A stretch of DNA of 42,245 nt from contig CALDVP010000142.1 of assembly GCA_937924195.1 (NCBI GenBank), positions 1 through 42,245 on the forward strand, in the 5' to 3' direction. The notes beneath the pieces were generated by a model that saw only the letters and a list, made by a program, of their open reading frames with translations, had not been told where the DNA came from and did no database searches. The DNA is from an uncultured Lysobacterales bacterium (GTDB lineage: Bacteria > Pseudomonadota > Gammaproteobacteria > Xanthomonadales > Ahniellaceae). Both the position numbers and the translations under genes were made by a program. This document shows, one piece after another, positions 16,948 through 42,245 of this stretch (the first letter of the stretch is position 1; every line of letters starts with the position of its first letter).

Positions 16948-18291
16948 ATGCGGCACTCCGCGCTGTTGATGATCACACTGTGGTTCGCGCTGTCGGGTTG
17001 TGCGTCACCGCAGCTTCGGTCCGCGCAAGAGCCCGCTGGACGTCAGTCCGATCCGCCGCGCAGTGCGATCTTCATCCATCCCGATGGCATGGGCGCCAAT
17101 ACCTGGATGGCGACCCGGCTGATGCACGTCGGTCCGGATGGTCGCCTTGCCTGGGACGCGCTGCCGCGAGTCGCGCTGTACGTGGGGCCGACCGTCGATG
17201 CGGTCAACCAGAGTTCGAACGCCGGCGCCACGACCCATGCATATGGCGTCCGGGCAAAGCTGGACAGCTACGGCATGATCGACGGACAGATCCCGGTGGC
17301 GGCTTCGGGCAGGGCGATGAGCCTGATGCGCGAGGCCCAGCGCGCAGGCAAGAAGGTCGCGATCATCAACTCATCGACGTTGGCCGAACCTGGCACCGGA
17401 GCCTTCCTGGCCTCGGTACCCAACCGCAAGGATGCGGCCGAGATCGTTTCACAGATCCTCGCCGCCGGTCCGGACATGGCGCTCGGCGGCGGCGAGGCCC
17501 ATTTTCTGCCCAAGGGCGTGCTTGGTCGGCATGGAGAGGGTCTGCGCGATGACGGCCGCAATCTGGTCGACGAGGCAAGGGCGGCCGGATATACCGTGGT
17601 CTTTACCCGCGACGAGCTTCGCGCCTTGCCCCGGGAGACAGAGCGGGTGCTCGGGCTGTTTGCACATGAAGAGACGTTCAACGAGCTCGGGGAGGCCGAG
17701 ATGCGTGCGCGGGGCGTGCCGCCGTTCCAGCCACAGGCGCCGCGGGTCGACGAGATGCTCGAGTTCGTCCTCGAACGGTTCGTCGACGCGCCGAACGGCT
17801 ATTTCGTCGTCGTCAATGAAGAGGGCACCGACAACCTGTCCGGTGAGAACAACGCGCTGGCGACGCTCGAGGCCGCGCACGGCGCCGATCGTGCGATCGC
17901 CAAGGCCCTCGACGCGTACCGGCGTGATCCCGATCTGACCATCATCGTGGCCTCCGACTCGGATAACGGCGGCATGAACGCGACCAGTGACGATCTCGAC
18001 GATCCGGACGACTTGCCGCGCCCGCTGCCAGCGCGCACGTCCGTGGGCTCGCCGCTCTCGAGCGATCGTGGCGAGCCGTTCCTGACCCCCCCGGATCACG
18101 AAGGCCACCGGATTCCCTTCTACATCACCTGGGCCTCGGACTCCGACAGTGCCGGCGGCCTCGTTACGCGCGGCATTGGTCCCGGCGCGGCGCTGATCGA
18201 AGGCACCATCGACGCGACCTGCATCTATCGGTCGCTTTACCTCGGTCTATTCGGGGTCGAACTCGGAGATTCGGCGCCACGGACGAGATGA
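16948..18291 (+). CDS. alkaline phosphatase superfamily lipoprotein, divergent active site
   Basis: 447 aa; lipobox-like LSGC; FIHPDGMGANTWMATR, QSSNAGATTHAYGVRAKLDSYGMIDG (PhoA nucleophile region), VVNEEGTDNLSGENN, VASDSDNGG. Confidence 0.8.
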   Translation: MRHSALLMITLWFALSGCASPQLRSAQEPAGRQSDPPRSAIFIHPDGMGANTWMATRLMHVGPDGRLAWDALPRVALYVGPTVDAVNQSSNAGATTHAYGVRAKLDSYGMIDGQIPVAASGRAMSLMREAQRAGKKVAIINSSTLAEPGTGAFLASVPNRKDAAEIVSQILAAGPDMALGGGEAHFLPKGVLGRHGEGLRDDGRNLVDEARAAGYTVVFTRDELRALPRETERVLGLFAHEETFNELGEAEMRARGVPPFQPQAPRVDEMLEFVLERFVDAPNGYFVVVNEEGTDNLSGENNALATLEAAHGADRAIAKALDAYRRDPDLTIIVASDSDNGGMNATSDDLDDPDDLPRPLPARTSVGSPLSSDRGEPFLTPPDHEGHRIPFYITWASDSDSAGGLVTRGIGPGAALIEGTIDATCIYRSLYLGLFGVELGDSAPRTR

Positions 18292-18318
18292 CATAGGCCG
18301 GACACGGGGCCGTCACGC

Positions 18319-18344
18319 GTCGAGCCGACGATCGCGGCTCCGAC
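18319..18344 (+). repeat. intergenic hairpin between phosphatase and TonB-dependent receptor genes
   Basis: GTCGAGCCG-acgatcg-CGGCTCcGAC (one bulged C). Confidence 0.4.
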
Positions 18345-18361
18345 ATCCAGGGGGTTCCCGC

Positions 18362-21157
18362 ATGTCCTTCTCACGTCCAGCGCGGCTTGCGTTGTCGATC
18401 GCGCTTGCGCTCTCGAGCGTCACTGCAGCCTCCCGCGAGGCTGGTCCGTCCGCCGAGGTCGTCGTCACCCGCTCTGCCGGGACCTTGACGGGTACGGTCA
18501 GGGAGGCCGCCTCGGGGCGGTTCCTCGAGGGCGCGCGGATCACGGCAAGCGGCATCACCACGTCCTCGAGCCGCGAAGGCCGGTTCCGGGTCAGTGGACT
18601 GCCCGTCGGACGTCATCTGGTCGAGGTCGACTTCATTGGCTACGAGCCGCAGCGATTCGAGATCGAGGTGGGTGCCGATCGGGGCGCCCGGGCCGACGTC
18701 GTGCTGGTGGCGACGTCCCGGACCCTCGATCGGATCGAGGTGCGCGCCACCCGCGATGCGCAAGCGCTGGCACTGAATCAGCAGCGGGCGGCCGGCAACG
18801 TGACCAACGTCGTTTCCGCCGATCTTCTGGGGCGATTCCCGGATGCGAACGTGGCCGAGGCGACGCAGCGGATTCCCGGGGTCGCGATCGAACGCGATCA
18901 GGGCGAAGGCCGCTACGTGAGCGTGCGCGGCGCGCCGCTCGAGTTCACCAGCGTGTCGGTCGACGGCCTGCCGCTGTCGGCCCCGAATCCGGGGCGCCGC
19001 GCGGTGGAGCTCGATACGATCCCATCGAATGTCATCGCCGCGCTCGAGGTCACCAAGTCGCTGACGCCGGACATGGATGGCGACGCGATCGCCGGCAACA
19101 TCAATATCCGCACCCAGAGCGCCTTCGACCGCGAGGGACCGACGGTTCGCGCTTCGGTTGCCAGCGGCCGCTACCAGCTCGGACCGGGCGACAACGACGC
19201 CGCCAGCGTGACCCTCGGAGATCAGTTCGGTGCGGGCGGGAACGTGGGGTGGCTGTTCTCGGCGTCCGGTAGCCGGCAGGGTCGATTCACCGAGAACATC
19301 GAGACCACCTTCGTGCGGAATCCGGCCACCAACCAGTTTCTGCCATCACTCACCGAGATCAAGGACTACGACGGCACGCGGACCCGCAATGGCTTCACCG
19401 GCCGCCTCGATGCCCGGATCGACGAGGCTCATCTGCTCTATGCGATTGCCTCTGCGGCCAAATTCCGGGACAAGGAGTACCGCAATCTCTTCGCGATCAC
19501 GTTCGAGCAGCCCCGGGCCGGTGCCACGCAGGCCGGCGGCGAGTTCGGGCGGGCGACGTTCGACAAGGAGATCCGCGAACGCATCCAGGAACAGCGGATC
19601 CGCACGTTGAACTTCGGCGGTGAGCACCGCCTCGACGAGTGGCTACTGACCTGGCAGGCTGGGCGCAGTGAGGGCGAGTTCGATATTCCGAGCCGCCAGC
19701 AGGTCATCTATCGGTCGACACTGCGACCCCCGCTGCGCTTCGACTACAGCAATCCCGACTTCCCGACCTACACCATCCTGAATCCGGATGGCACGGTTCG
19801 TCAGGAAGGCATCGACCTGCCGGAGTCGGTCTGGGCATTTCGGCGCTACAACCGCCGCTTCGAGCAGTCCGATGAGAGCGAGAACAGCTTTCGGGCCGAT
19901 CTCGAGCGCGCGCAGGACTGGATCGGCGAGTACGGCACGATCAAGTTCGGTGTACGGGCGCGCTTGCGTGACAAGGAAAGCAACGACGACCGCTTCCGCA
20001 ACTCGGTGGCGGCGGGCACGCCGGCGTACACGAGTCTGCTCTGCAACACGGTGTCCAACAATTTCGGCCGCTACCTCTTTGGACGTGAGTATTGTCAGTC
20101 GATCTTCTCGGACGGCACGATCGAAACGTTCCGGAATGCCAATCTGCTGCCGCTGGTCGCCGACTCGGCGGTGAACGACTATCGGTCCTCCGAAGACATC
20201 AAGGCGGCCTACGTGCGCTTCGATGCGACCTGGGACCGACTGAGTCTGATCACCGGGATTCGCTACGAACGAACGGGCACCGAGGGGCGCGCCAACCGCT
20301 TCGACATCCGCACACAGCAGATCACGCCGCAGGCCGTGGAACGGGACTATGTGAAGCTGCTGCCGAGCGTGCATCTGCGATTCGAGGACGAGGATGACCT
20401 CCTCTATCGCGCCTCCTACTCGACCGCGCTGAACCGACCGAACTACCGCGACATCGTGCCGCGGCTGGCGATCGACGACAACGCACGGACTGCCGTAGCG
20501 GGTAACCCCGATCTCAAGGCCGTTTACTCACACAATTTCGACTTCTCCGTCGAACGGTACCTGCGCCCCCTCGGTCTGCTCTCGGCCGCGGTGTTCCACA
20601 AGGAACTGCGCGATCCGGTCTTCATCACCACGACCACGTTCGGGACCGGACCGTCATCGCTTCGGGTCACGCAGCCGCAAAATGGCGAGAAGGGTCGAAT
20701 CTCGGGACTCGAGTTGACCTGGCAGCAGACCTTCGACTGGCTCCCGGAACCGCTCGATGGCCTTGGCATCTACTCGAACTACACCTACGCCAAGTCCTCA
20801 GCCGAACTGCCGCTTGGCATCGGCCGCACCGAGCTTCCCGGAACTTCGCGGCACAACGTGAACGTCGCGCTGGCGTATGAAAAAGGCCCTTTCAATACGC
20901 GCCTCAGCTACACGCGCCGATCCAGGTTCATCCAGGAGTTCGACGTCGATGACGACGCGCTCAACGTCTACTGGGACGCGCGGCCAGTGCTCGACCTGAC
21001 CGCCAGCTACGGAATCGGCGCGAACTGGGAAGTCTTCGCCGAGGCCAACAATCTCACCGACAGCCGCCAGCGTCGCTTCCAGGGCGAACGCAGCCGCGTG
21101 TTCGAGCTCGAGGGCTTCGGTCGCTTCTGGAAGCTCGGCGTGCGCTACAACCTCTGA
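18362..21157 (+). CDS. TonB-dependent receptor with N-terminal carboxypeptidase-regulatory-like domain
   Basis: 931 aa; signal peptide, LTGTVREAASGRFLEGARITASG...GYEPQRFEIEV domain, plug (DLLGRFPDANVAEATQRIPGVAIERDQGEGRYVSVRG), C-terminal FWKLGVRYNL. Confidence 0.93.
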   Translation: MSFSRPARLALSIALALSSVTAASREAGPSAEVVVTRSAGTLTGTVREAASGRFLEGARITASGITTSSSREGRFRVSGLPVGRHLVEVDFIGYEPQRFEIEVGADRGARADVVLVATSRTLDRIEVRATRDAQALALNQQRAAGNVTNVVSADLLGRFPDANVAEATQRIPGVAIERDQGEGRYVSVRGAPLEFTSVSVDGLPLSAPNPGRRAVELDTIPSNVIAALEVTKSLTPDMDGDAIAGNINIRTQSAFDREGPTVRASVASGRYQLGPGDNDAASVTLGDQFGAGGNVGWLFSASGSRQGRFTENIETTFVRNPATNQFLPSLTEIKDYDGTRTRNGFTGRLDARIDEAHLLYAIASAAKFRDKEYRNLFAITFEQPRAGATQAGGEFGRATFDKEIRERIQEQRIRTLNFGGEHRLDEWLLTWQAGRSEGEFDIPSRQQVIYRSTLRPPLRFDYSNPDFPTYTILNPDGTVRQEGIDLPESVWAFRRYNRRFEQSDESENSFRADLERAQDWIGEYGTIKFGVRARLRDKESNDDRFRNSVAAGTPAYTSLLCNTVSNNFGRYLFGREYCQSIFSDGTIETFRNANLLPLVADSAVNDYRSSEDIKAAYVRFDATWDRLSLITGIRYERTGTEGRANRFDIRTQQITPQAVERDYVKLLPSVHLRFEDEDDLLYRASYSTALNRPNYRDIVPRLAIDDNARTAVAGNPDLKAVYSHNFDFSVERYLRPLGLLSAAVFHKELRDPVFITTTTFGTGPSSLRVTQPQNGEKGRISGLELTWQQTFDWLPEPLDGLGIYSNYTYAKSSAELPLGIGRTELPGTSRHNVNVALAYEKGPFNTRLSYTRRSRFIQEFDVDDDALNVYWDARPVLDLTASYGIGANWEVFAEANNLTDSRQRRFQGERSRVFELEGFGRFWKLGVRYNL

Positions 21158-31312: not shown

Positions 31313-31330
31313 CTGTCATATCGATGAAAC
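31313..31330 (+). promoter_or_regulatory. candidate Pho box upstream of the TonB-type operon
   Basis: CTGTCAT-atcg-ATGAAAC: first heptamer is exact Pho-box CTGTCAT, second weak; ~105 bp upstream of ATG 31420. Confidence 0.3.
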
Positions 31331-31419: not shown

Positions 31420-32193
31420 ATGAGTCCGATCCTGCGCCTCGCACCGGCCGCTGCCCTCGCGGCCCTGTTGCTGACTCCGCTGTCTGTCGCCGCCGACGAG
31501 GCCGACGAGCTTGCCCGGCGCCTGATTGCGCTGCGCGGCGAGGTCGAACAGCTGAATGCCGAGCTCGAACTCAAGCGGGAGGAGCAGCGCGCGACCCTGC
31601 TCGGCCTCACCCAGCAGCGCGCGCAACTCGAGGCAGACCTGAAGCGCCAGGAGTTGGCGGCGCGCGAGGCGCGCGACCGGCTGGCTCAGGCGACCGAGGC
31701 CGAGGCCGGCGCCGGCGTCGCCGGTGACGCGCTGAAACCCGTGTTGGCGACGGCGCTCGACGAGCTCGCCGCGGCCGTGCGGGCCGGGCTGCCGTTCAAG
31801 ACCGAGGAGCGGCTCGCCGCGATCGAGGCCATCCGCGTGGAGATCGACTCCGGCCGGCTGCCACCGCATCGCGCTGCGAATCGCGTCTGGGCCTTCATCG
31901 AGGACGAGTTCCGGCTCGCCCGCGAGACGGGTCTCCACCAGCAGACGCTGACGCTCGATGGCCGGCAGGTCTTCGCCGAGGTGGCGAAGATCGGTAACGT
32001 GATGTTGTTCTGGCGGACCAAGGATCGCCGTTACGGCCAGGCCCGCCGCGCCGGCCGCGGCTGGGAGTTCGTCGAGCTCACGGATGAACCGGCACGGGGC
32101 CAGGTCCGCGCCTTCTTCGACTCGCTCGACAAGCAGATTCGGCAGGGCTACTTCGAATTGCCGAACGCACTGGCGCAGGCCGGGAGCCGCTGA
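31420..32193 (+). CDS. periplasmic coiled-coil DUF3450-family protein
   Basis: 257 aa; signal peptide, long heptad region LRGEVEQLNAELELKREEQRATLLGLTQQRAQLEADLKRQE, first gene of a TonB2-type operon. Confidence 0.75.
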   Translation: MSPILRLAPAAALAALLLTPLSVAADEADELARRLIALRGEVEQLNAELELKREEQRATLLGLTQQRAQLEADLKRQELAAREARDRLAQATEAEAGAGVAGDALKPVLATALDELAAAVRAGLPFKTEERLAAIEAIRVEIDSGRLPPHRAANRVWAFIEDEFRLARETGLHQQTLTLDGRQVFAEVAKIGNVMLFWRTKDRRYGQARRAGRGWEFVELTDEPARGQVRAFFDSLDKQIRQGYFELPNALAQAGSR

Positions 32194-32194
32194 C

Positions 32195-33625
32195 ATGAAG
32201 TCCATCCGTGACCAACTGCCGCTGCTCGCGGTCGCCGTGTTCGCGCTGACCGGCGCCGTCCACGCCCAGACCACGCCTGCGCCGGCCGACCCGACGCCCG
32301 CTGCCACACCGACCCCGCAGGCTGCGCCGGCGCCGACCGTCTCGCTCGCCGACGCCTACCGCCGCGAGTTCGCATTCCTCGAGGCGCAGAAGCGCGAACT
32401 GACGGCGCGTATCGCCGAGTCGACCCGCAGTTTCGAGGCTGACCGCACGCGCCTCGAGCGCGAGGTCGCCTCGCTCGAGGGTCGCGTGCTCGCGGCGCGC
32501 AACGAGGCCGAGGCCTTTGCGCGCGAACTGGTCCTGTCCGACCAGCGCCAGGAAGCGATAGAAGCCCAAAGCCAGCTGCTTGCCGCGACCTTCGCACAGG
32601 CGGAGGCCAGTCTGTCGGGCCTCGGTAGCGACCTCCTCGCCGAATCCTCGTACCGCGACGCCGATGACGCGGTGCGCCTCGCCCGCGTATTCGAGGCGGC
32701 GCGCGATCGCATCGCCGAGTCGGCCCGGGTCCGCACCGAGCCCGGAAAGTTCTTCCTCGAGGACGGTACCGAGGTCTCGGGCACGCTGGTGCGGATCGGC
32801 AACGTCGCGACGCTCGGTGTCAGTCCGCAGGGGGCCGGCGCGCTGGCGCCTGCCGGCGGGGGCGGTTTCAAGCTGTGGGACCGTGGCGCGTCCGCGGATG
32901 TCGCGCGTGCCCTGGCCCAGGGCCAGACGGTGCCGACGCTCAGGCTTTTTCTGTATGAGAACCCCAACACTGCGGTCGAACGGCCGGTCGAGAAGACGCT
33001 CGGCAAATGGTTGGCCTCGGGTGGGGCGATCGGCTATGTGATCGTCGGGCTCGGCCTGCTTGGCGTGCTGCTCGCGATCCTGCGCGCGGTGTTCCTGAAG
33101 AACGCCGGCGCGCGCGTGCATCAGATCATCGACGGGGTCAGTGCGCCGCTCGCGCAGGGACGGATCGCAGACGCGATCGAGGCCTGCAAGCGACACAAAG
33201 GGTCCGCGGCGCGCGTCGTCACCGCGGCGCTGCGCAACATCGATCGTGATCGCGAGCATCTCGAGGACATCATCTCGGAATCGATCCTGCACGAGTCGGG
33301 CCACCTGAATCGCTTTGGGCCCTTCATCCTGCTGATCGCCGCGGTCGCACCGCTCCTCGGCCTGCTCGGCACCGTGACCGGCATGATCCAGACCTTCGAT
33401 GTGATCACCGAGTTCGGCACCTCCGATCCGAAGCTGCTCTCAGGCGGCATCTCGGTGGCGCTGGTCACGACCCAGCTCGGCTTGATCGTCGCGATCCCGA
33501 CCTTGCTGGTCGGCAACCTGCTGAACGGCTGGGCCGAGCGGATCAAGGACGACATGGAGAAGGCCGCGCTCAAGGTCGTGAACCTCTACAACGACGCGCG
33601 CGCCGCCGCGCCGCGCGCCGGCTGA
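32195..33625 (+). CDS. TtpC-like MotA/TolQ/ExbB proton channel family protein with periplasmic N-terminal extension
   Basis: 476 aa; signal peptide, coiled-coil domain, C-terminal ExbB module PFILLIAAVAPLLGLLGTVTGMIQTFDVITEFGTSDPKLLSGGISVALVTTQLGLIVAIPTLL. Confidence 0.88.
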   Translation: MKSIRDQLPLLAVAVFALTGAVHAQTTPAPADPTPAATPTPQAAPAPTVSLADAYRREFAFLEAQKRELTARIAESTRSFEADRTRLEREVASLEGRVLAARNEAEAFARELVLSDQRQEAIEAQSQLLAATFAQAEASLSGLGSDLLAESSYRDADDAVRLARVFEAARDRIAESARVRTEPGKFFLEDGTEVSGTLVRIGNVATLGVSPQGAGALAPAGGGGFKLWDRGASADVARALAQGQTVPTLRLFLYENPNTAVERPVEKTLGKWLASGGAIGYVIVGLGLLGVLLAILRAVFLKNAGARVHQIIDGVSAPLAQGRIADAIEACKRHKGSAARVVTAALRNIDRDREHLEDIISESILHESGHLNRFGPFILLIAAVAPLLGLLGTVTGMIQTFDVITEFGTSDPKLLSGGISVALVTTQLGLIVAIPTLLVGNLLNGWAERIKDDMEKAALKVVNLYNDARAAAPRAG

Positions 33626-33653
33626 TCTGGGACGGGCGCCCGGGGTCATCGCC

Positions 33654-34292
33654 ATGCTGCGCGAATTCACCGAGATCACCGACCTTTGGAGCGCGCTTCA
33701 CGCCTTCTATGTCTACCTGTCGCTCGGCGGCTGGGTGATGTGGGCGATCCTCGCGGTCGCGCTGGTACTCGGCTGGGCGCTGGGCCGGCGCTCTGCGGTG
33801 CTGCGCCGAGGCAGTGACAAGAACGTGCGCGTGCTGCTGCGGCGCGTCGAGGAAGGCCGGGCCAATCCGCCGAATGGCATCGTCGACGTCGCGATCCAGC
33901 GTGGCCTTGCGCTGAAGCAGGCGGGCAAGCCGAACCTTCGCCGCTACCTCGATGAGGCCTTCTTTGACCTCGAGTCCGACTTGAAGCGGCACTCGATCCT
34001 GGTCACGACGCTGGTTTTGATCGCACCGCTGCTGGGTCTGCTAGGGACGGTTTCCGGAATGATCGTGACCTTCGACTCGCTGGCCGAGATGGCCCTGTTC
34101 ACCCAAGACGGCGGCATCGCGGCGGGCATCTCGACCGCGCTCTTCACCACCCAGATGGGGCTGGTGGTTGCCGTCCCCGGAATGATCGCCAAGGGCATCC
34201 TCGATCGCCGGCAGCAGCAGATCGCGATCGACCTCGCCCAGATCAAGGACATCCTGACGAGTTCGCCCGGGCCGACGGAGGCCAGCCCATGA
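33654..34292 (+). CDS. ExbB/TolQ family proton channel protein
   Basis: 212 aa; LVTTLVLIAPLLGLLGTVSGMIVTFDSLAEMALFTQDGGIAAGISTALFTTQMGLVVAVPGMIA. Confidence 0.9.
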   Translation: MLREFTEITDLWSALHAFYVYLSLGGWVMWAILAVALVLGWALGRRSAVLRRGSDKNVRVLLRRVEEGRANPPNGIVDVAIQRGLALKQAGKPNLRRYLDEAFFDLESDLKRHSILVTTLVLIAPLLGLLGTVSGMIVTFDSLAEMALFTQDGGIAAGISTALFTTQMGLVVAVPGMIAKGILDRRQQQIAIDLAQIKDILTSSPGPTEASP

Positions 34293-34699
34293 TTCGCCGT
34301 GAGCGCAAGGTCCAGGAAGGCAGCGTCGACCTGACGCCGATGATCGACATGACCTTCATCCTGCTGATCTTCTTCATGGTCTCGACGACCTTCGTCAAAG
34401 ACTTGAAGATCGACATCAACCGCCCGGGCGCGAGCACCGCCCAGGTGGCATCGACCAAGGCCGTGCGCCTCTACATCGACAAGGCCGGCGAGGTCTACCT
34501 CGAGGGCGAGCCGGTGCGCGTTTGGGTGATCCAAAGCCGCGTGCGTGACCTCCTGCGCGCCTCGACCAACAAGAGCGTGCTGGTCGTGACCGACGAGATC
34601 GTCCCCTCGGGTCGCCTGGTCGAGGTCGTCGACCAGGCGCGCGCGGCTGGCGCCGAGGACATCGGCGTCGCGACCGTGGCCGAGGCCGGCGCCGGCTGA
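34289..34699 (+). CDS. ExbD/TolR family protein
   Basis: 136 aa; VDLTPMIDMTFILLIFFMVSTTFVKDLKIDI; ATGA overlap with upstream exbB. Confidence 0.92.
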   Translation: MIRRERKVQEGSVDLTPMIDMTFILLIFFMVSTTFVKDLKIDINRPGASTAQVASTKAVRLYIDKAGEVYLEGEPVRVWVIQSRVRDLLRASTNKSVLVVTDEIVPSGRLVEVVDQARAAGAEDIGVATVAEAGAG

Positions 34700-34701
34700 C
34701 G

Positions 34702-35346
34702 ATGACTGCGATCACGCTCGACGACGCGCTGCGCGCGCGACTGCTCGGGGCCGCCGGCGCGGCTGCCGCAATGCTGCTCGTGCTCGCCGCGGTGATCGTG
34801 ATGAACACCCAGGCGCTCAAGCGCAATCGTGACGACGGCATCGCTGGTACTGCGATCCAGGTGCAGCGCGTCGAGCAGCCGCCGCCGCAGCAGGTGATCG
34901 AGCGCAAGCCGCCGCCGCCGCGGCGTGCGGCTCCGCGCGCTGAACCGATCGTCGGCCTCGAGGGTGCGCTGGCCGGCATGGACTTCGGTCTGCCGCAGTT
35001 CGAGGAGGCCGGGATGCTGGACGCGGCGTCGATCCTCGGCGAGAGCAGCGGAACGATGACCGACGACACCGTCGACCAGCCGCCGCGCCCGGTGGTGCAG
35101 AACCCGATGCCGTATCCGGCCCGCGCCAAGGCGCAAGGGACGACTGGCTACGTGCTGTTGTCGGTGCTGATCGGGCCCACCGGCATGGTCGAGAAGGTGA
35201 GGGTCCTCGAGTCGAGTCCGCCCGGCGTCTTCGACGATGTCGCGGTCGCTGGCGTCCAGACCTGGCGCTTCGAGCCGGCGCAGTACCGCGGCGAGGCGGT
35301 GCGGGTGTGGGCGACGCAGCGCGTCCGCTTCGATCTGGGGCGCTGA
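34702..35346 (+). CDS. TonB family energy transducer
   Basis: 214 aa; N-terminal TM, PPPQQVIERKPPPPRRAAPR, C-terminal NPMPYPARAKAQGTTGYVLLSVLIGPTGMVEKVRVLESSPPGVFDDVAVAGVQTWRFEPA. Confidence 0.92.
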   Translation: MTAITLDDALRARLLGAAGAAAAMLLVLAAVIVMNTQALKRNRDDGIAGTAIQVQRVEQPPPQQVIERKPPPPRRAAPRAEPIVGLEGALAGMDFGLPQFEEAGMLDAASILGESSGTMTDDTVDQPPRPVVQNPMPYPARAKAQGTTGYVLLSVLIGPTGMVEKVRVLESSPPGVFDDVAVAGVQTWRFEPAQYRGEAVRVWATQRVRFDLGR

Positions 35347-35349
35347 ACG

Positions 35350-36504
35350 ATGGGTCGAGTCATCCTCCCGATCTTGCTCATCCTGCTCGTTGCGCTGGCG
35401 GCCCCGGTCGCGGACGCGCGCAAGCGCAACCCCGAGATCGATTACCTGTCGGTGGCCGAGGTGCTGTTGAGAGACGGCGCGGTCGATCGCGCCGAGGCTG
35501 CGCTGGCAGAAGTCGATCCGGCTGCCGAGGGTGTCGATCTCGCGCGCTACCACACGGTGAGCGGACTGATCGCCTCGCAGCGAAACGACCTCAAGGCCGC
35601 AGCCGCAGCTTTCGAGCAGGCGCTCGCGGCCGGGCAGACCGAGCCGATGGTCGTGCTCTATCTGGCTCAGGCCTACTTCGCCGAGGAGGCGTGGCGCAAG
35701 GTCGTCGATACGATTGCGCGCGGCGGCGAAGCGCTGCAGGACGTCACCGCGGCGTGGTCGATGAGGGCGCACGCAAACTGGATGCTTGGCGAGCGTCAGA
35801 GCGCCCTGGACCTGCTCTCGAACGCCGCCGACCGCTTCCCGGCGAATACCACCTTCACCCGTCGACAAGTCTTCTACCTGATCGAGGCCGGGCTCTACCA
35901 GGAAGCCGCGCGCGTCGCGCGGGCCTTCCTCGCGCGCGGCGACGTCGGCGCCGATGAGTACGCCACCGTCGGTAGTGCCCTGCGCCGCGCGCGCGCCTTC
36001 GACGAGGCGAAGGCGATCCTCGAGGCCGCGCGCCTGCGATTTCCGGCCGACCAGAATCTGGCCAAGGCGCTGGCGCAGGTCTACCTCGAATCGGGACAGA
36101 TGCTGGCCGCCGCCGAGCTGCTGAACCAGGCCGCGCTGATCGACCCTGCCTTGCTGCCAGAGACTGCGGAGCTCTACCGTCGCGCTGGATACCCCATGCA
36201 GGCGCTGGCGCTGAACTCGCGGGTTCCGGATTCGTCGCGGAAGCTCAAGCAGCGTATCGGCATTCTTGCCGAGCTTCGACGCTACGAACAGATCACGGGG
36301 ATGGCGCGCGCCCTCGAGCGGGCCGGCTTGCTTGCCGATGAAGATGTGCGCTACGCGCTTGCATTTGCCTATTTCCGCGGTGGTGACTTCGAGCGTGCCG
36401 AAAGTCACTTGTCGGCGCTGACGCGCCCCGAGCTGTTCCGCAAGGCCACCGAGCTGCGCCGAATCATGGCTGAGTGCAGCGATTCGCGCTGGAATTGCGG
36501 ATAA
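35350..36504 (+). CDS. secreted tetratricopeptide-repeat protein
   Basis: 384 aa; signal peptide MGRVILPILLILLVALAAPVADA, repeated TPR-like helices. Confidence 0.82.
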   Translation: MGRVILPILLILLVALAAPVADARKRNPEIDYLSVAEVLLRDGAVDRAEAALAEVDPAAEGVDLARYHTVSGLIASQRNDLKAAAAAFEQALAAGQTEPMVVLYLAQAYFAEEAWRKVVDTIARGGEALQDVTAAWSMRAHANWMLGERQSALDLLSNAADRFPANTTFTRRQVFYLIEAGLYQEAARVARAFLARGDVGADEYATVGSALRRARAFDEAKAILEAARLRFPADQNLAKALAQVYLESGQMLAAAELLNQAALIDPALLPETAELYRRAGYPMQALALNSRVPDSSRKLKQRIGILAELRRYEQITGMARALERAGLLADEDVRYALAFAYFRGGDFERAESHLSALTRPELFRKATELRRIMAECSDSRWNCG

Positions 36505-36517
36505 GGATCTACCAGTC

Positions 36518-39500
36518 ATGAACCCGAAGTCCCGACGCGCGCTCGGTACCCTGTGCGCACTCGCACTGTCGATTCGCGTCGCGCTCGCGGCTGCGCCGGC
36601 CGCGTTGAACGTGGTTGCGTTCGACCGCTCGACGCCTCTGGCACGGGCAGAAGTCGTCGTCGACGGTCGTGTCGTGGGCCGAACGAACGCCGACGGCGCG
36701 TTGTCACTCCAGCTCGAGCCGGGCTCGCGCGAATTGATCATCCGAGTGGACGGTCGTGACGTATTGCGGCGGCCACTCGAACTGGTGCCAGGCGAAGCCG
36801 CCGAGCTGATCGCAACGATCGATCCCGACGCCGAGCCGAGAGTTCTCTTCGAGAGTTCCCGTGGCTCCTTGGCGGGATCCACGGCGACGACCACGGCGGA
36901 GGTGGGTCCGCCCGGTCGCCTTGCCGGCCGAATCACGAGCGCCGAAGACGGCAAGCCGGTCGCCAACGCGCGGGTCTTCGTCAGTGGCACGCCGATCGAC
37001 GTACGCACCGACACCGACGGCCGCTTCGAAGCCAGCTTGCCGCCAGGCGACTATTCGATCTCGGTCGTCGCGCCAAACTTTGCCGCGCGTACGCTCGACG
37101 GAATCGCGATCGCATCGGAGGTCCGCACCGACCGAGATGTCGAGTTGACGCCGGCGGGTCTCGAGCTGCCCGAGTTCGTCGTTCTCGAGCCCTTCGTCGA
37201 AGGCTCGCTCGCCGCCTTCGTCGAGGAAAAGCGGCAGAGTTTCGCCGTTGCCGACGTGCTCAGCATCGAACAGATTTCGCGCGCCGGCGACTCCGACGTC
37301 GCTGGCGCATTGCGCCGCGTCACCGGCCTCACGCTGGTCGACGGCAAATATGTCTACGTCCGTGGGCTGGGCGAGCGCTATTCGAGCGTGCTGCTGAACG
37401 GTGCGTCGGTGCCGTCGCCCGACCCGAGCCGCAGAGTCGTCGCGCTCGACCTCTTTCCGGTCGAGATCCTCGACGGCGTGGTGATCCAGAAGAGCTTCTC
37501 GCCGGAAATGCCCGGGGAATTCGGCGGGGGCACGATCCAGCTCCGAACTCGCAGCATTCCAGCCGGGTTCTTCGTGCGTCTGGCCCTGAGCCAGGGCTGG
37601 GTCGAGGGCACCACCCTCAAGTCAGGTCTCCGCTATGACGGGGGAACGCAGGATTGGACCGGGTTCGATCAGGTGCGCGGTCTGCCGGATTCGGTGATCG
37701 AGGCCAACCGACGGTTCGGGACGCTCCGGGTCGAGACCCCGTTTAGCCCGGGCCTGACGCCCGCTGAACTGGAGACGGTGGGCCGAGACCTCGCGGCCGG
37801 TGGCTTCGACACGCGGCTTGCCAAGCTGCCGACGAACGGAAGCCTCACCTTCGCGATCGGCAATGCCCTCGACATCGGCGAGGACTGGCGCGTCGGATTC
37901 ACCCATTCGATTCGGTACGCCCAGAGCTGGGACAACCTCGAAGATGTGCGCCGCAAGTTCGCGTTCTCCGGCCCCGGAGAACCCCTCGTGCCGTTTCTCG
38001 ATCTCACGCGCGAACGAACCGAACGGCAGATCGATCTTTCGGCATTCCTGGCGCTCGGCGTCGAGTATGGGGAGCATCATCGAATCCAGGCGACGACGAC
38101 GCTGGTGCGGCAAACGATCGACACGACGCAGATCGACGAAGGTCTCGATATCTCGGAATCGTTGTCGCGTTTCTTTCTGCTCGAATGGGAAGAGAATGCG
38201 CTACTGGCTCAGCAGTTCAATGGCAGTCATCGGTTTCCGACGGTCTCGGATCTCTCGCTCGACTGGAACTACACTCGCGCCCAGGCCAAGCGCGATGCGC
38301 CAAATACGCGCAGTTATCGATACGACCTGATCGAAGGGACCGAGGACCGCTTTCAGCTTTCGCCGAGGTCCGACAGCAATGACATCACCTACGGCAACCT
38401 GGTCGACGACAGCGAGAGCGCGAACGTCGATCTCAAGCTGCCGTTCAGTCCGGCCGACGGACACACCATCAGCTACATGGCGGGGCTCGGCCGGATCGAC
38501 CGCGAGCGGCGGGCCGAGGTGCGCCGCTACAGCTACTTCGGGCGCCCGCCGCCGGGCAGCCCGGAGGATTTTCTGCAACGACCCCCGAGCCGGATTTTTT
38601 CGCCCGAGAACATTCGGCGCGATGGTTTCGTCATCCGTGACGTGACGCGGAACTCCGATGCCTATCTTGCGACCTTCGATCTCAAGTCGGCCTACTTCAA
38701 CTTCGATTGGGTCTGGGAGGACGTGCTCCGGTTCACCGCCGGGGCCCGCGATGAACGGTTGGATCAGTTGGTGCGGACGTTCAACCTCAGCAACACTTCG
38801 GTGATCGACAGTGAGTCGGTCCTCCGGAGCAAGGACGTGCTGCCTTCGGCGGCGGTGACCTGGTTCATCAATGAGGATGCGCAATTGCGCGCGATCTTCG
38901 CCGAGACGGTCTCCCGCCCGGACTTTCGGGAATTGACGACCAGCGCCTTCATCGATCCGGTCGTCGACACGATCTCGATCGGAAACCCAGAACTCGTGCC
39001 CGCGGCTATCAAGAACTACGATCTGCGTTACGAATATTATTTCTCGCCGACGGAAAGCGCCTCGATCGCGTTGTTCGGCAAGGAGTTTTCAAGTCCGATC
39101 GAACGTATCCAGTCGCCTGCAACCGGTGACGTCGTGACTTTCAACAATGTGCCGAGCGCGACCCTCTACGGGATCGAGTTCGATCTTTACAAATCGCTCG
39201 GCTTCGTCTCCGAATGGGACTGGACCGAGCGACTGGGGCTCGGTTGGTTGCCCTGGCAGGATATCTATGTCAACGCCAATTATGCGCGGATTCAGTCGAG
39301 GGTTTCATTGACCCGAGAAACAGCGGGGATTCTGACCAATCTCGAACGGCCTCTGCAGGGCCAGTCCCCCTACGTGACCAATGTGCAGCTCGGTTGGTAC
39401 CCGGAGGACGGCGAGCGGGAGCTCAGCATCCTCTACAATCTCTCCGGACGACGCATTTCGGAAGTCGGTGTGTTTGGCACGCCGGACGTGTTCGAAGAAC

Positions 39501-39673
39501 CGGCGGGGCAGCTCGACGTGGTCTATGCCACGCGTCTTCCGGCGGATTTCAAGCTCAAGCTGCGCGCGCGGAACCTGCTCGATCCGAAGATCGAGTTCAC
39601 GGTAGGCGACGAGATCCGCCGCGAATACCGGCGCGGTCGCTCGGTGACTGTCAGCATCGAGCGGTCGTTCTGA
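36518..39673 (+). CDS. TonB-dependent receptor with two N-terminal carboxypeptidase-regulatory/Ig-like domains
   Basis: 1051 aa; LNVVAFDRSTPLARAEVVVDGRVVGRTNADGALSLQLEPG and LAGRITSAEDGKPVANARVFVSGTPIDVRTDTDGRFEASLPPGDYSISVV; plug VYVRGLGERYSSVLLNGASVPSPDPSRRVVALDLFPVEI; C-terminal SVTVSIERSF. Confidence 0.93.
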   Translation: MNPKSRRALGTLCALALSIRVALAAAPAALNVVAFDRSTPLARAEVVVDGRVVGRTNADGALSLQLEPGSRELIIRVDGRDVLRRPLELVPGEAAELIATIDPDAEPRVLFESSRGSLAGSTATTTAEVGPPGRLAGRITSAEDGKPVANARVFVSGTPIDVRTDTDGRFEASLPPGDYSISVVAPNFAARTLDGIAIASEVRTDRDVELTPAGLELPEFVVLEPFVEGSLAAFVEEKRQSFAVADVLSIEQISRAGDSDVAGALRRVTGLTLVDGKYVYVRGLGERYSSVLLNGASVPSPDPSRRVVALDLFPVEILDGVVIQKSFSPEMPGEFGGGTIQLRTRSIPAGFFVRLALSQGWVEGTTLKSGLRYDGGTQDWTGFDQVRGLPDSVIEANRRFGTLRVETPFSPGLTPAELETVGRDLAAGGFDTRLAKLPTNGSLTFAIGNALDIGEDWRVGFTHSIRYAQSWDNLEDVRRKFAFSGPGEPLVPFLDLTRERTERQIDLSAFLALGVEYGEHHRIQATTTLVRQTIDTTQIDEGLDISESLSRFFLLEWEENALLAQQFNGSHRFPTVSDLSLDWNYTRAQAKRDAPNTRSYRYDLIEGTEDRFQLSPRSDSNDITYGNLVDDSESANVDLKLPFSPADGHTISYMAGLGRIDRERRAEVRRYSYFGRPPPGSPEDFLQRPPSRIFSPENIRRDGFVIRDVTRNSDAYLATFDLKSAYFNFDWVWEDVLRFTAGARDERLDQLVRTFNLSNTSVIDSESVLRSKDVLPSAAVTWFINEDAQLRAIFAETVSRPDFRELTTSAFIDPVVDTISIGNPELVPAAIKNYDLRYEYYFSPTESASIALFGKEFSSPIERIQSPATGDVVTFNNVPSATLYGIEFDLYKSLGFVSEWDWTERLGLGWLPWQDIYVNANYARIQSRVSLTRETAGILTNLERPLQGQSPYVTNVQLGWYPEDGERELSILYNLSGRRISEVGVFGTPDVFEEPAGQLDVVYATRLPADFKLKLRARNLLDPKIEFTVGDEIRREYRRGRSVTVSIERSF

Positions 39674-39839
39674 CGCCGCGGCGGGTGCGACCGATCTGCG
39701 ACGCGTGGGACGACCCGCGACGAAGTGCCGCAAGCCTGCACACGCGGATGATTACTCGTCATCGGCGGACGGAATCGCGAGCCGCGCGGCGAGTGACAGC
39801 CGCCGGACTGCTCCCGGCAGACCGGCGGCGTCCGTAGCG

Positions 39840-39857
39840 CTGTCATCTAGCTGACGT
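39840..39857 (+). promoter_or_regulatory. candidate Pho box upstream of the secreted beta-helix-like gene
   Basis: CTGTCAT-ctag-CTGACGT: exact first heptamer, second 5/7 to CTGTCAY, 4-nt spacer; ~120 bp upstream of ATG 39960. Confidence 0.4.
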
Positions 39858-39911
39858 AAAAGCGCCAAGTCCGCGTCACCCGTCCCGTCTAGTCTCCCGC
39901 GGCGTGTCCGT

Positions 39912-39929
39912 CCCGACCACCGGGTCGGG
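39912..39929 (+). repeat. 5'UTR hairpin upstream of beta-helix-like gene
   Basis: CCCGACC-accg-GGTCGGG. Confidence 0.45.
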
Positions 39930-39959
39930 GTCTCGTCATCGTCCACATCGAGGTATCCC

Positions 39960-41750
39960 ATGAAACCGAGTGTCCTCAAGCGGACTGCCGCTGTCGCCGC
40001 GTTTGCGGTGGCCGGTCTCTTCGCTGCGCCCTCTGAAGCCGCGTTCATCGTCAACGAAAATACGGTCGAAGGAAACTGGTTCTCCGATCCGTCCAACATC
40101 TCGATCGAGTTCGACTACATTCCTCTCGGCGGGGTCAATGGCGTCCTGTTCGCAGTCGTGTATACCTTCGACGGCTCGGGCAATCCGCTGTGGTTGTCTT
40201 CGACGATTCCGGTCACCGAAGGTCAGTTCAGCTTCACGAACCAGGATCTCTTCCGGTTCACGGGTGGCACGTGGAACAATCGAACCGCGAACACGCAAGT
40301 GTCGCCGGCCTTCGGGAAGATCTCGATCACGTTCAACACCTGCAGTGAGGCTACCGTCTCGGTGACGCCGGCTGCCGGTTCGAACCTGAACGCACTCAAC
40401 AACCTTCGCGTGATCAAGTCCGAAACTGGCATCGCCGGTTACCGCTCGCCTGGCTGCGTGTACACCGAGCCGTTCACCGCGTGTCCGGCTGGCACGACGG
40501 CGGTGTCGGGCCAGCCGCGCACCTGCCTGCTGACGGGGATCAACACACAGCCCATTCGTCTCACCAACTCGGCGACCTACCTGCTGCAGGGTAAAGTGCA
40601 GATCGGCGGTCCATTGCCGACCAACGGTCAGCCCCAGAATCCGACCACGATCACGATCGAACCGGGCACGCTGATTCGCGGTGCGACGGGCGGCCTCGAC
40701 TTCCTCCAGATCAATCCTGGGTCGAAGATTTTTGCAGAGGGTACGCCGGATGCGCCGATCATCTTTACGGGACCCACCGAGGAGTCCGGATCGTGGGGTG
40801 GTCTGGTCGTCGCGGGACTGGCGCGCAACAATGCGGCGTCCGTACCGGGCGGTACCGCTGCGTTCGAAGCGGATCCGAATACCATCTGGGGCGGAAACAA
40901 CGACGCCGATTCGTCGGGTGTGTTGCGGTTCATCCAGATCCGTAACGCGGGGCGCGTGATCTCGGGCAATGTCGAGCTCAACTCGCTGACGATGGGTTCG
41001 GTCGGCTCGGGCACGGTGGTGGAATACATCCAGAGTCACAATGGCCTCGACGACTGCATCGAACTGTTCGGTGGCACCGTGAACGTCAAGTATTTCGTGT
41101 GCACCCGTGGCAACGACGACGGGATCGACATCGATACCGGTGGCTATCGCGGATTCATCCAGTACGCGCTGATCACCGCCGGTGGCAACGCCGATCCCTC
41201 CGACGGCAGCTGCGTCGAGTCGGACAGCAACGCCCAGTCGTTCAATGCCCAGCCGCGAGCGAATCCGATCGTTGCAAATATGACCTGTATCGGACGGGCC
41301 GGTCAGAATTTCCGCCGGCAGATCCGCCTGCGGCGCGGCTCGGCCGGGCAGTACTGGAACTCGGTCATTGCCAACCAGCCGAGCGGCGAGTGCCTGACGA
41401 TCTTCGATCAGGCAACGTTCGATCAAATTCCCGCCGGGTTGCTGCAGATCCGAGGCACCTCTCTGCTCGGCTGCACCAACAACTTCGGGGCCGCGAGCGC
41501 GGATCTTACCGCGCAGGTGCAGACGTGGTTCAACACCGCGGGATGGAATAACAATACCGGCACGATCGCAGGCAATCTCGACGGCCTGTTCCCCGTCCGT
41601 GGGGGTGGTCTCGATGGCACCGCGGCACCGTTGCCCGCCGACAACCCGTTCTTCGACAAGGTCAACTTCCGTGGCGCCCTCGGCCCGTCGCCGGCGCGCA
41701 ACTGGACGATCGGCTGGACCTATCCGGGTTCGGTCGGCAGCTTCGACTGA
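39960..41750 (+). CDS. secreted protein of unknown function with parallel beta-helix-like character
   Basis: 596 aa; signal peptide MKPSVLKRTAAVAAFAVAGLFAAPSEAA; N-terminal EGNWFSDPSNISIEFDYI...FDGSGNPLWLSSTI segment; beta-helix-like TITIEPGTLIRGATGGLDFLQINPGSKIFAEGTPDAPIIFTGPTEESGSWGGLVVAG; C-terminal FRGALGPSPARNWTIGWTYPGSVGSFD. Confidence 0.8.
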   Translation: MKPSVLKRTAAVAAFAVAGLFAAPSEAAFIVNENTVEGNWFSDPSNISIEFDYIPLGGVNGVLFAVVYTFDGSGNPLWLSSTIPVTEGQFSFTNQDLFRFTGGTWNNRTANTQVSPAFGKISITFNTCSEATVSVTPAAGSNLNALNNLRVIKSETGIAGYRSPGCVYTEPFTACPAGTTAVSGQPRTCLLTGINTQPIRLTNSATYLLQGKVQIGGPLPTNGQPQNPTTITIEPGTLIRGATGGLDFLQINPGSKIFAEGTPDAPIIFTGPTEESGSWGGLVVAGLARNNAASVPGGTAAFEADPNTIWGGNNDADSSGVLRFIQIRNAGRVISGNVELNSLTMGSVGSGTVVEYIQSHNGLDDCIELFGGTVNVKYFVCTRGNDDGIDIDTGGYRGFIQYALITAGGNADPSDGSCVESDSNAQSFNAQPRANPIVANMTCIGRAGQNFRRQIRLRRGSAGQYWNSVIANQPSGECLTIFDQATFDQIPAGLLQIRGTSLLGCTNNFGAASADLTAQVQTWFNTAGWNNNTGTIAGNLDGLFPVRGGGLDGTAAPLPADNPFFDKVNFRGALGPSPARNWTIGWTYPGSVGSFD

Positions 41751-41813: not shown

Positions 41814-41849
41814 ACGAGGCCACCGCGCAAGCGGTGGCCTCGTTCTTTT
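41814..41849 (+). terminator. intrinsic terminator after the beta-helix-like gene
   Basis: ACGAGGCCACCGC-gcaa-GCGGTGGCCTCGT followed by TCTTTT; 13-bp perfect stem, GNRA tetraloop, U-tract. Confidence 0.93.
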
Positions 41850-41885
41850 GCGAGACGTGCGAGCCGTGGCGGGGTTCGCGTTTGA

Positions 41886-42245
41886 TCAGAGCAGCCCACG
41901 CTCGGCCAGTGACACCGGCTCGCCATCGCCGACGATGAAGTGGTCGAGCAGGCGTGCATCGACGAGAGCCAGTGCTGCCCGCAGGCGCTCGGTGACCGTC
42001 AGATCGGCGGCGCTTGGCTCGGCGATTCCCGAAGGATGGTTGTGGGCGACGATCACGGCGGCAGCGTTGTGCGCCATCACGCGGCGCACGACCTCGCGCG
42101 GATGCACGCTGGTGGCGTTCAGCGTGCCACGGAACAGTTCTTCTCGCGCGACGACACGGTGGCGGTTGTCGAGGAACAGTGCCACGAAGACCTCGTGCGG
42201 TAGGGGGCCGATCCAGAGTTTCAGGTATTCGGCGGTGTCCCGTGG
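41886..42245 (-). CDS. radC: RadC-family JAB-domain DNA repair protein, 5' end truncated by window edge
   Basis: Frame open to window end ([81 protein letters not shown]); JAMM motif HNHPSGxxxPSxxD. Confidence 0.93.

Follow-up and report, generated by a model that had tools for sequence, protein, structure and literature searches.

What does a Ton motor do when it is encoded together with one receptor and one secreted protein? The question is raised by a 10-kb gene cluster in a 42,245-nucleotide stretch of DNA (the window) from an uncultured Lysobacterales bacterium (assembly GCA_937924195.1, contig CALDVP010000142.1). A previous sequence-only reading had described this cluster as a self-contained TonB2-type locus, dedicated either to uptake or to export, with the Oar-dependent secretion of PopC in Myxococcus xanthus as a precedent for the export direction. 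Our analysis suggests that the locus is probably a PhoB-controlled machine for the acquisition of a phosphorus-containing compound, in which an importer in the outer membrane works with a helper outside the cell and a motor of its own. Gene content, membership of the ElpS and CC0171 families, co-conservation, Pho-box-like sites and pho/pst neighbours were computed directly, and the domain families of the cluster proteins were called above Pfam cut-offs.

Results

Gene content of the locus

The eight plus-strand genes proposed for the cluster are all present as open reading frames at the positions claimed for them, and their products belong to the families originally named (Table 1). From ttpB through the receptor gene the intergenic gaps are +1, 28, -4, 2, 3 and 13 nt, and the receptor gene is separated from the secreted-protein gene by 286 nt. 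The ttpC-like product carries an N-terminal extension of about 300 aa ahead of its MotA_ExbB domain. The terminator noted after the last gene is real, with a stem-loop at 41816-41841 (GAGGCCACCGC-GCAA-GCGGTGGCCTC; -30 kcal/mol) that is followed by the T-rich GTTCTTTT.

Table 1. Features of the cluster, in coordinates of the window.
Feature	Position	Strand	Details
Whole cluster	31420-41750	+	8 genes: 6-gene Ton motor, receptor, secreted protein
Pho-box-like site	31313..31330	+	CTGTCATATCGATGAAAC; 89 nt before ttpB; second-best PWM score of the window
ttpB-like, DUF3450 periplasmic coiled coil, 257 aa	31420..32193	+	PF11932, 98 bits
ttpC-like, ExbB-family with periplasmic extension, 476 aa	32195..33625	+	PF01618, 102 bits, residues 339-456
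exbB, 212 aa	33654..34292	+	PF01618, 80 bits
exbD, 136 aa	34289..34699	+	PF02472, 92 bits
tonB, 214 aa	34702..35346	+	PF03544, 74 bits
ttpD-like, exported TPR protein, 384 aa	35350..36504	+	TPR_19 and other TPR matches
TonB-dependent receptor, CC0171 family (by homology), 1051 aa	36518..39673	+	PF13620, PF07715, PF00593
Pho-box-like site	39840..39857	+	CTGTCATCTAGCTGACGT; 102 nt before the secreted-protein gene; best PWM score of the window
Extracellular protein, ElpS family (by homology), 596 aa	39960..41750	+	Homology, AlphaFold2 model
Intrinsic terminator	41816..41850	+	11-bp GC-rich stem, GCAA loop, T-rich tail

The secreted protein and the adjacent receptor

The product of the last gene has a signal peptide without a lipobox (ending in ...AAPSEA ahead of AF), an N-terminal beta domain (residues ~40-150) and a beta-helix (166-590). 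The sequence-only reading had called it beta-helix-like, and the AlphaFold2 model of residues 166-590 agrees, with pLDDT values above 85 in most 10-residue blocks. Invariant acidic residues (D364, D365, E368, D386, D387, D390 and E420) are located in the beta-helix, and the C-terminus has the motif GAx..W...W. The protein matched no family in Pfam or NCBIfam and had no convincing relative in the PDB by sequence, and Foldseek gave nothing specific, returning weak beta-helix matches (best E 2e-3). Sequence comparison, on the other hand, aligned it with a Caulobacterales homologue (loci L160/L189; 36% identity over 331 aa, E 3e-42), a 512-aa protein with a lipobox LAGC at 17-20 and Asn38, whose gene is followed by a receptor gene and then by gspC-D-E-F-G. 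Because these features are those published for ElpS/CC0170 (PMC2996285), we take this homologue as ElpS-type, and it may be CC0170 itself. By homology, then, the window protein belongs to the ElpS family, named for Caulobacter CC0170, which is encoded beside the receptor CC0171. Both this membership and the known tie of the family to phosphate starvation had escaped the earlier reader.

Signals for export vary among the homologues. The window protein and its Lysobacterales relatives have a type I signal peptide lacking the cysteine, most lineages outside Lysobacterales have a lipobox, and in some Bacteroidota the homologues carry T9SS sorting domains (above cut-off in 5 of 5 tested). The lipoprotein signal is a trait of ElpS itself, absent from the window protein, and is not taken to define the family, the T9SS variants being likewise without a lipobox.

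The receptor combines CarboxypepD_reg, Plug and TonB-dependent barrel domains (Pfam) with two N-terminal beta-sandwich domains. Its AlphaFold2 model (pLDDT 88) matches TonB-dependent transporters in Foldseek (E 7e-34); iron or heme receptors make up many of the solved receptor folds nearest to it, HasR and TbpA types being among the closest. With the receptor encoded beside the ElpS-like gene in L189 it shares 30% identity over 827 aa (E 3e-81), a similarity that identifies it as a homologue of CC0171, likewise adjoining an ElpS-family gene. A signalling-type receptor was considered and dropped, as Pfam detected no STN domain in the protein.

Co-conservation was surveyed in 116 loci (36 in relatives and 80 named) from Gamma-, Alpha- and Deltaproteobacteria, Bacteroidota and Poribacteria. 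The receptor is adjacent to the secreted-protein gene, on the same strand, in 27 of the 36 loci in relatives, with a divergent full cluster in 5 more; among the 80 named loci, which span several phyla, it is adjacent in 66 and at the opposite end of a full cluster in another 5. Adjacency is kept in both gene orders, and most homologues with T9SS domains or lipoprotein signals still adjoin a receptor. The grouping of receptor and secreted protein is thus far beyond chance, and the proposed coupling of one receptor to one secreted protein is borne out by these counts. The six-gene motor is optional: in many loci, receptor and secreted protein are encoded with no motor nearby.

Probable phosphate control

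The whole 42-kb window was scanned on both strands with a PWM, and a Pho-box-like site was found ahead of each transcription unit. CTGTCAT occurs only twice in the 42 kb, at these two sites, and CTGTCATN4CTGTCAT has a single match with at most 3 mismatches, at 39840. Both sites are imperfect in the window (2 mismatches at 39840, a weak second half at 31313) and clearer in relatives. Of 77 proteobacterial loci, 26 have a site scoring at least 16 ahead of the secreted-protein gene, where permuted motifs give 1.0 on average; none of 37 loci from Bacteroidota or Poribacteria has one. Sites scoring at least 15 precede ttpB in 24 of the 44 loci that have this gene (1.2 for permuted motifs). Ahead of the receptor, an internal gene, they are not enriched (3 of 107 loci, against 2.8). 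The genome encodes PhoB (362 bits), and in 22 of 121 loci the cluster has a gene for PhoB, Pst or PhoU as a neighbour, as in an Alteromonas locus with the order phoB-phoR-pstS-oxygenase-elpS-receptor-ttpBC-exbBD-tonB-ttpD. Phosphate control of the window cluster is supported at the level of sequence, and PhoB would be the regulator that exerts it.

The ElpS family is phosphate-regulated in two phyla: ElpS is a surface-exposed protein induced by phosphate starvation (PMC2996285), and in Flavobacterium johnsoniae the FI, FII and FIII lipoproteins and adjacent TonB-dependent transporters are induced by phosphate depletion, FI making up 18.7% of the exoproteome (PMC8115612). A separate promoter for the secreted-protein gene had also been suggested in the 286-nt gap; the Pho-box-like site at 39840-39857 favours it, but a sigma-70 consensus scan of the gap found nothing above chance. 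The best Fur boxes reach at most 9/19 in either promoter, and Fur control was rejected as Fur boxes are not enriched among relatives. Pho boxes in their place agree with the view that this is a dedicated machine and not one for general iron transport.

The Ton motor

The TonB2/TtpC architecture recognized earlier proved correct, the gene order being identical to that of Vibrio vulnificus ttpB2-ttpC2-exbB2-exbD2-tonB2-ttpD2 (PMC6957404). The window motor works like a TonB2 motor, yet it is not classed as a TonB2 iron system, because there is no Fur box. The Ttp sets on record for Vibrio, Aeromonas and Salinivibrio were checked, and neither a receptor nor an ElpS partner was found beside any of them; Vibrio TonB3 could be the same system. 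TtpC proteins fall into two deeply split clades. The genome encodes 18 receptors and 5 TonB_C proteins, so that the motor may also serve other receptors.

Discussion

Upon phosphate starvation, PhoB would activate the operon ttpB-ttpC-exbB-exbD-tonB-ttpD-receptor together with the elpS-type gene, which forms a monocistronic unit of its own. Its product, the ElpS-type protein, would cross the inner membrane via Sec and then reach the outside, in the window organism probably via type II secretion. Outside the cell it could capture or process a polyanionic, phosphorus-bearing substrate and hand it to the TonB-dependent receptor at the cell surface, which would import it with energy from the dedicated Ttp-type Ton motor. 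In this scheme we infer the control by PhoB, the direction of import, the contact between protein and receptor, the type II route, what the substrate is and how the beta-helix acts on it. A bolder version, which we put forward tentatively as the less probable course of events, is that a full Ttp-type motor was recruited to the Pho regulon, perhaps repeatedly in view of the two TtpC clades, to power one phosphorus importer, and that the ElpS-type beta-helix is a surface protein that captures or cleaves a phosphorus polymer through the ladder of invariant acidic residues on its successive coils. If true, such a recruitment would explain what some orphan Ttp motors do, the receptor-linked TonB3-like sets among them.

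The pair could also be read as unrelated neighbours, the ElpS-type protein having its main role outside the cell as an enzyme or an activator of phosphatase and the receptor importing some other ligand. ElpS overproduction does increase alkaline phosphatase activity in the supernatant, ElpS itself having no phosphatase activity; cc0171 was reported to be expressed in rich as well as in poor media, was not co-regulated with elpS, and its deletion did not abolish elpS production, with no uptake phenotype shown (PMC2996285). The observations on cc0171, and the missing phosphatase activity of ElpS, weigh against phosphorus acquisition too. The beta-helix also has a weak likeness to polysaccharide-acting enzymes in Foldseek. 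Nevertheless, adjacency in both gene orders across several phyla is hard to explain otherwise than by joint action of the two proteins, and we regard incidental proximity as unlikely. Slightly less likely still is an export role in which the Ton motor drives the receptor to carry the ElpS-type protein out through the outer membrane, as Oar does for PopC. The CarboxypepD_reg-plug-barrel architecture of the receptor is that of Oar, but importers such as SusC have it too (PMC6434023); in Caulobacter, ElpS crosses the outer membrane without needing type II secretion (PMC2996285), and the signal peptide of the window homologue is a plain one, but the genome encodes two type II secretins. Furthermore, the receptor is retained where the partner carries T9SS domains, in some Bacteroidota, or a lipoprotein signal, in most other lineages, so that export is probably not its conserved role, and the export direction considered earlier is disfavoured.

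Very improbable is a Fur-type locus for siderophore or heme uptake resembling Vibrio TonB2. The six motor genes are those of TonB2, a system under iron control that V. vulnificus requires for siderophore uptake (PMC6957404), and iron and heme receptors are frequent among the nearest solved folds; against this stand the poor and unenriched Fur boxes, the Pho boxes found instead, and the phosphate regulation of the family in two phyla. Phosphorus acquisition is the reading that we prefer. In many waters and soils it is phosphorus that limits growth, and little is known about the passage of large phosphorus compounds through the outer membrane. The receptor-ElpS pair spans several phyla and its family has neither a Pfam model nor a solved structure, although one member, FI, is the most abundant exported protein of F. 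johnsoniae under phosphate depletion. The importer-helper pair is already known; its pairing with a phosphate-controlled motor of its own appears not to have been described before, and offers a function outside iron use for Ttp-type Ton systems. Because the window contains the whole set, from motor and receptor to the extracellular partner and two Pho-box promoters, substrate, energy source and partner can all be tested in one system.

In HasR-HasA and TbpA-TbpB, too, a receptor obtains its ligand from a partner protein outside the cell or on its surface; the ligand there, unlike in our reading of the window, is heme or iron, and to our knowledge the partner proteins are not beta-helices. Oar/PopC shares with the window the receptor architecture, associated Ton genes and an extracellular partner, in that case a protease whose secretion needs Oar (PMC6434023), but the relatives of the window partner take T9SS or lipoprotein routes. 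The exbB2-exbD2-tonB4 genes of Pseudomonas aeruginosa are also a Ton motor under phosphate-starvation control (PhoB/VreI regulon), although they have no ttp genes, no receptor/ElpS pair is named for them and, unlike the window motor, they adjoin the Hxc type II and PdtAB secretion genes (PMC7035377). Vibrio TonB2 and TonB3 have the same six genes, identically arranged, and TonB3 has a receptor of its own at the operon start (PMC6957404); TonB2 differs in its iron regulation, the window having no Fur box, and Vibrio TtpC is in a clade distant from that of the window TtpC. F. johnsoniae FI, FII and FIII, which are induced solely on phosphate depletion and abundant outside the cell, are related to ElpS (reported identities 31-36%), and two adjoin TonB-dependent transporters; they are lipoproteins with no adjacent motor reported (PMC8115612), and no E. 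coli-type Pho box was seen upstream in the Bacteroidota loci examined. ElpS/CC0171 offers a homologous extracellular protein with a homologous adjoining receptor and a link to phosphate, but ElpS is a lipoprotein encoded beside type II secretion genes, with no adjacent Ton motor reported (PMC2996285), whereas its counterpart in the window bears a plain signal peptide and an additional N-terminal domain, and shares its cluster with the six motor genes.

Results

The eight genes of the cluster (see table) are all present and complete by ORF reading and profile matches. The sequence-only reading had likened the first six to a TonB2/TtpC set, and they are indeed ttpB (DUF3450), ttpC (ExbB with an extension), exbB, exbD, tonB and ttpD (TPR), arranged as in the published tonB2 operon of Vibrio vulnificus (PMC6957404). 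The seventh product is a TonB-dependent receptor of 1051 residues, in which two beta-sandwich domains at the N-terminus precede the plug and the barrel. The exported 596-residue eighth protein has no Pfam or NCBIfam match and no convincing PDB relative by sequence. It had been described as beta-helix-like, and AlphaFold2 (overall pLDDT 83) models residues 166-590, mostly above 85, as a beta-helix, Foldseek returning beta-helix matches only, all weak. The strong terminator proposed after its gene was also found. Before ttpB lies a divergent sensor histidine kinase gene, followed by trpE. Its product resembles TIGR03785, the kinase of the 'proteobacterial dedicated sortase system', at 460 bits against a cut-off of 612. 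The gene probably begins at ~31215, which leaves free the intergenic region with the ttpB Pho box.

Features in and around the cluster
Feature	Position	Strand	Remark
PF00245 alkaline-phosphatase-family gene, then directly a second TonB-dependent receptor gene	16948-21154	+	lipoprotein-like start; receptor TIGR01782, above cut-off
Sensor histidine kinase	29218-31215/31332	-
Pho-box-like site	31313		89 nt upstream of ttpB start codon
Eight-gene cluster	31420-41750	+
Receptor	36518-39673	+
Pho-box-like site	39840		102 nt upstream of elpS-type start codon
elpS-type gene	39960-41750	+
N-terminal beta domain of its product	within 39960-41747	+	residues ~10-150
Terminator	41816
RadC family protein, C-terminal part	41886-42185	-	near window end

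The receptor and elpS-type genes belong to a pair that was already known. In Caulobacter, the gene of ElpS (CC0170), a surface lipoprotein produced under phosphate starvation, directly precedes receptor CC0171 and gspC-N genes; the authors of that work pointed out that Shewanella, Bacteroides and Xanthomonas have homologues too, which co-occur with CC0171 homologues (PMC2996285). We found ElpS-type proteins in 94 of 120 Caulobacterales genomes searched. One Caulobacterales genome (loci L160 and L189) encodes a protein with exactly the published ElpS landmarks (lipobox LAGC at 17-20, Asn38, 512 residues) and, downstream, a receptor and gspCDEFG; we infer that this protein is CC0170. The window's pair matches this one at E 3e-42 (secreted protein) and 3e-81 (receptor), and family membership is independent of that naming. 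Eight loci have genes for type II secretion, gspC to gspG, after the pair. In F. johnsoniae, phosphate depletion induces the lipoproteins FI, FII and FIII, for which 31-36% identity to the Caulobacter protein is reported; two of the three adjoin TBDTs that are likewise induced, and no other exoprotein is as abundant as FI (PMC8115612).

In the beta-helix, D364, D365 and E368 are repeated 22 residues on as D386, D387 and D390, followed by E420, and all are invariant in 50 homologues. An acidic ladder of this kind, running from one coil to the next, points to a possible metal or catalytic site acting on a polyanion; ElpS itself is reported to have shown no activity as a phosphatase (PMC2996285). 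On its own, the N-terminal beta domain has matches at E 1e-11 to 1e-4 in many further ORFs of relatives and looks like a mobile accessory domain, here without a Pfam match. In four loci (L104, L116, L139, L118) the ElpS domain is tandemly duplicated or triplicated within one protein, such homologues reaching ~930 aa in Alphaproteobacteria and ~900-1360 aa in Alteromonadales.

A search of 60 relatives gave matches to the eighth protein in 43 of 61 genomes, the window's own included, some covering the N-terminal domain only. The receptor is adjacent on the same strand in 27 of 36 fully read relative loci, and five more are divergent full clusters with the receptor at the far end. Among the best 80 loci from 84,980 species genomes (Gamma-, Alpha- and Deltaproteobacteria, Bacteroidota, Poribacteria), it is adjacent, in both gene orders, in 66 and closes a full cluster in five more; some of the other nine run into contig ends or escaped the strict rule (L103, L125, L138). 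As loci were selected by the secreted protein, these counts give the frequency of the receptor beside that protein and do not give the frequency of the protein beside the receptor. The proposed grouping of receptor, secreted protein and TonB set holds for the pair; the motor, present in 23/36 relative and 12/80 wider loci by the same script (some hidden by contig ends), is an optional third element. An Aquimarina contig (L136) has two receptor-ElpS pairs next to each other, which suggests specialised copies. Secondary replicons or plasmids can carry the cluster in Pseudoalteromonas and Alteromonas (L152, L153).

The Pho box consensus in E. coli is CTGTCAT N4 CTGTCAT. With a matrix built from it and permuted matrices as control, sites scoring at least 16 precede the elpS-type gene in 26 of 77 proteobacterial loci (1.0 expected, although one permuted matrix reached 21) and in 0/37 Bacteroidota/Poribacteria loci; before ttpB, 24 of 44 loci score at least 15 (1.2 expected, permuted maximum 11). 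The region before the receptor, usually an internal gene, is an inner negative control and shows no enrichment (3/107 against 2.8 expected). Fur boxes are not enriched either. Over all positions and both strands, the window's two best scores are those before the elpS-type gene and ttpB, the only sites with the exact heptamer in 42 kb; a count of two is not itself unusual, and it is their placing, rather than their number, that is telling. PhoB is encoded in the source genome, an 87%-complete assembly. Genes for phosphate functions rank with the most frequent neighbours, with PhoB, PstS/C/A/B or PhoU genes adjoining 22 of 121 loci; on Alteromonas macleodii plasmid pBGP9, phoB-phoR-pstS(-like) shortly precede the cluster. 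The alkaline-phosphatase-family gene and second receptor are possibly another phosphorus-scavenging unit; the window scan gave no good Pho box upstream of them.

Discussion

In the open-access literature subset, we found no report that brings together a full Ttp motor, a receptor and an ElpS-type protein in a single machine under Pho control. The motor shares its gene content with the TonB2/TtpC type but not the iron/Fur feature of TonB2. The sole precedent found for a phosphate-controlled Ton motor is P. aeruginosa exbB2-exbD2-tonB4 (PMC7035377), whose neighbours differ from those here. In the TtpC tree, the pair is linked to two widely separated clades, and the Alteromonadales sets fall together with sets of Vibrio, Aeromonas and Salinivibrio in which the pair is missing; the two clades hint that motor and pair became associated more than once, in a sampling not designed for that question.

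The receptor had been considered as a possible exporter of its partner. In five homologues (Bacteroidota and one Kryptonia genome) T9SS sorting domains score above cut-off, and most of the remaining homologues have a lipoprotein signal. The window's organism encodes two type II secretins, which could release a protein with a plain signal peptide such as this one. Because homologues take T9SS or lipoprotein routes and yet the receptor stays, export through the receptor is less likely. The nearest solved folds of the receptor include TbpA and HasR, a level at which all TBDTs are alike. With the surface route varying by lineage and the receptor constant, the conserved relation would therefore be that of an extracellular protein with its receptor, as in HasA-HasR or TbpB-TbpA.
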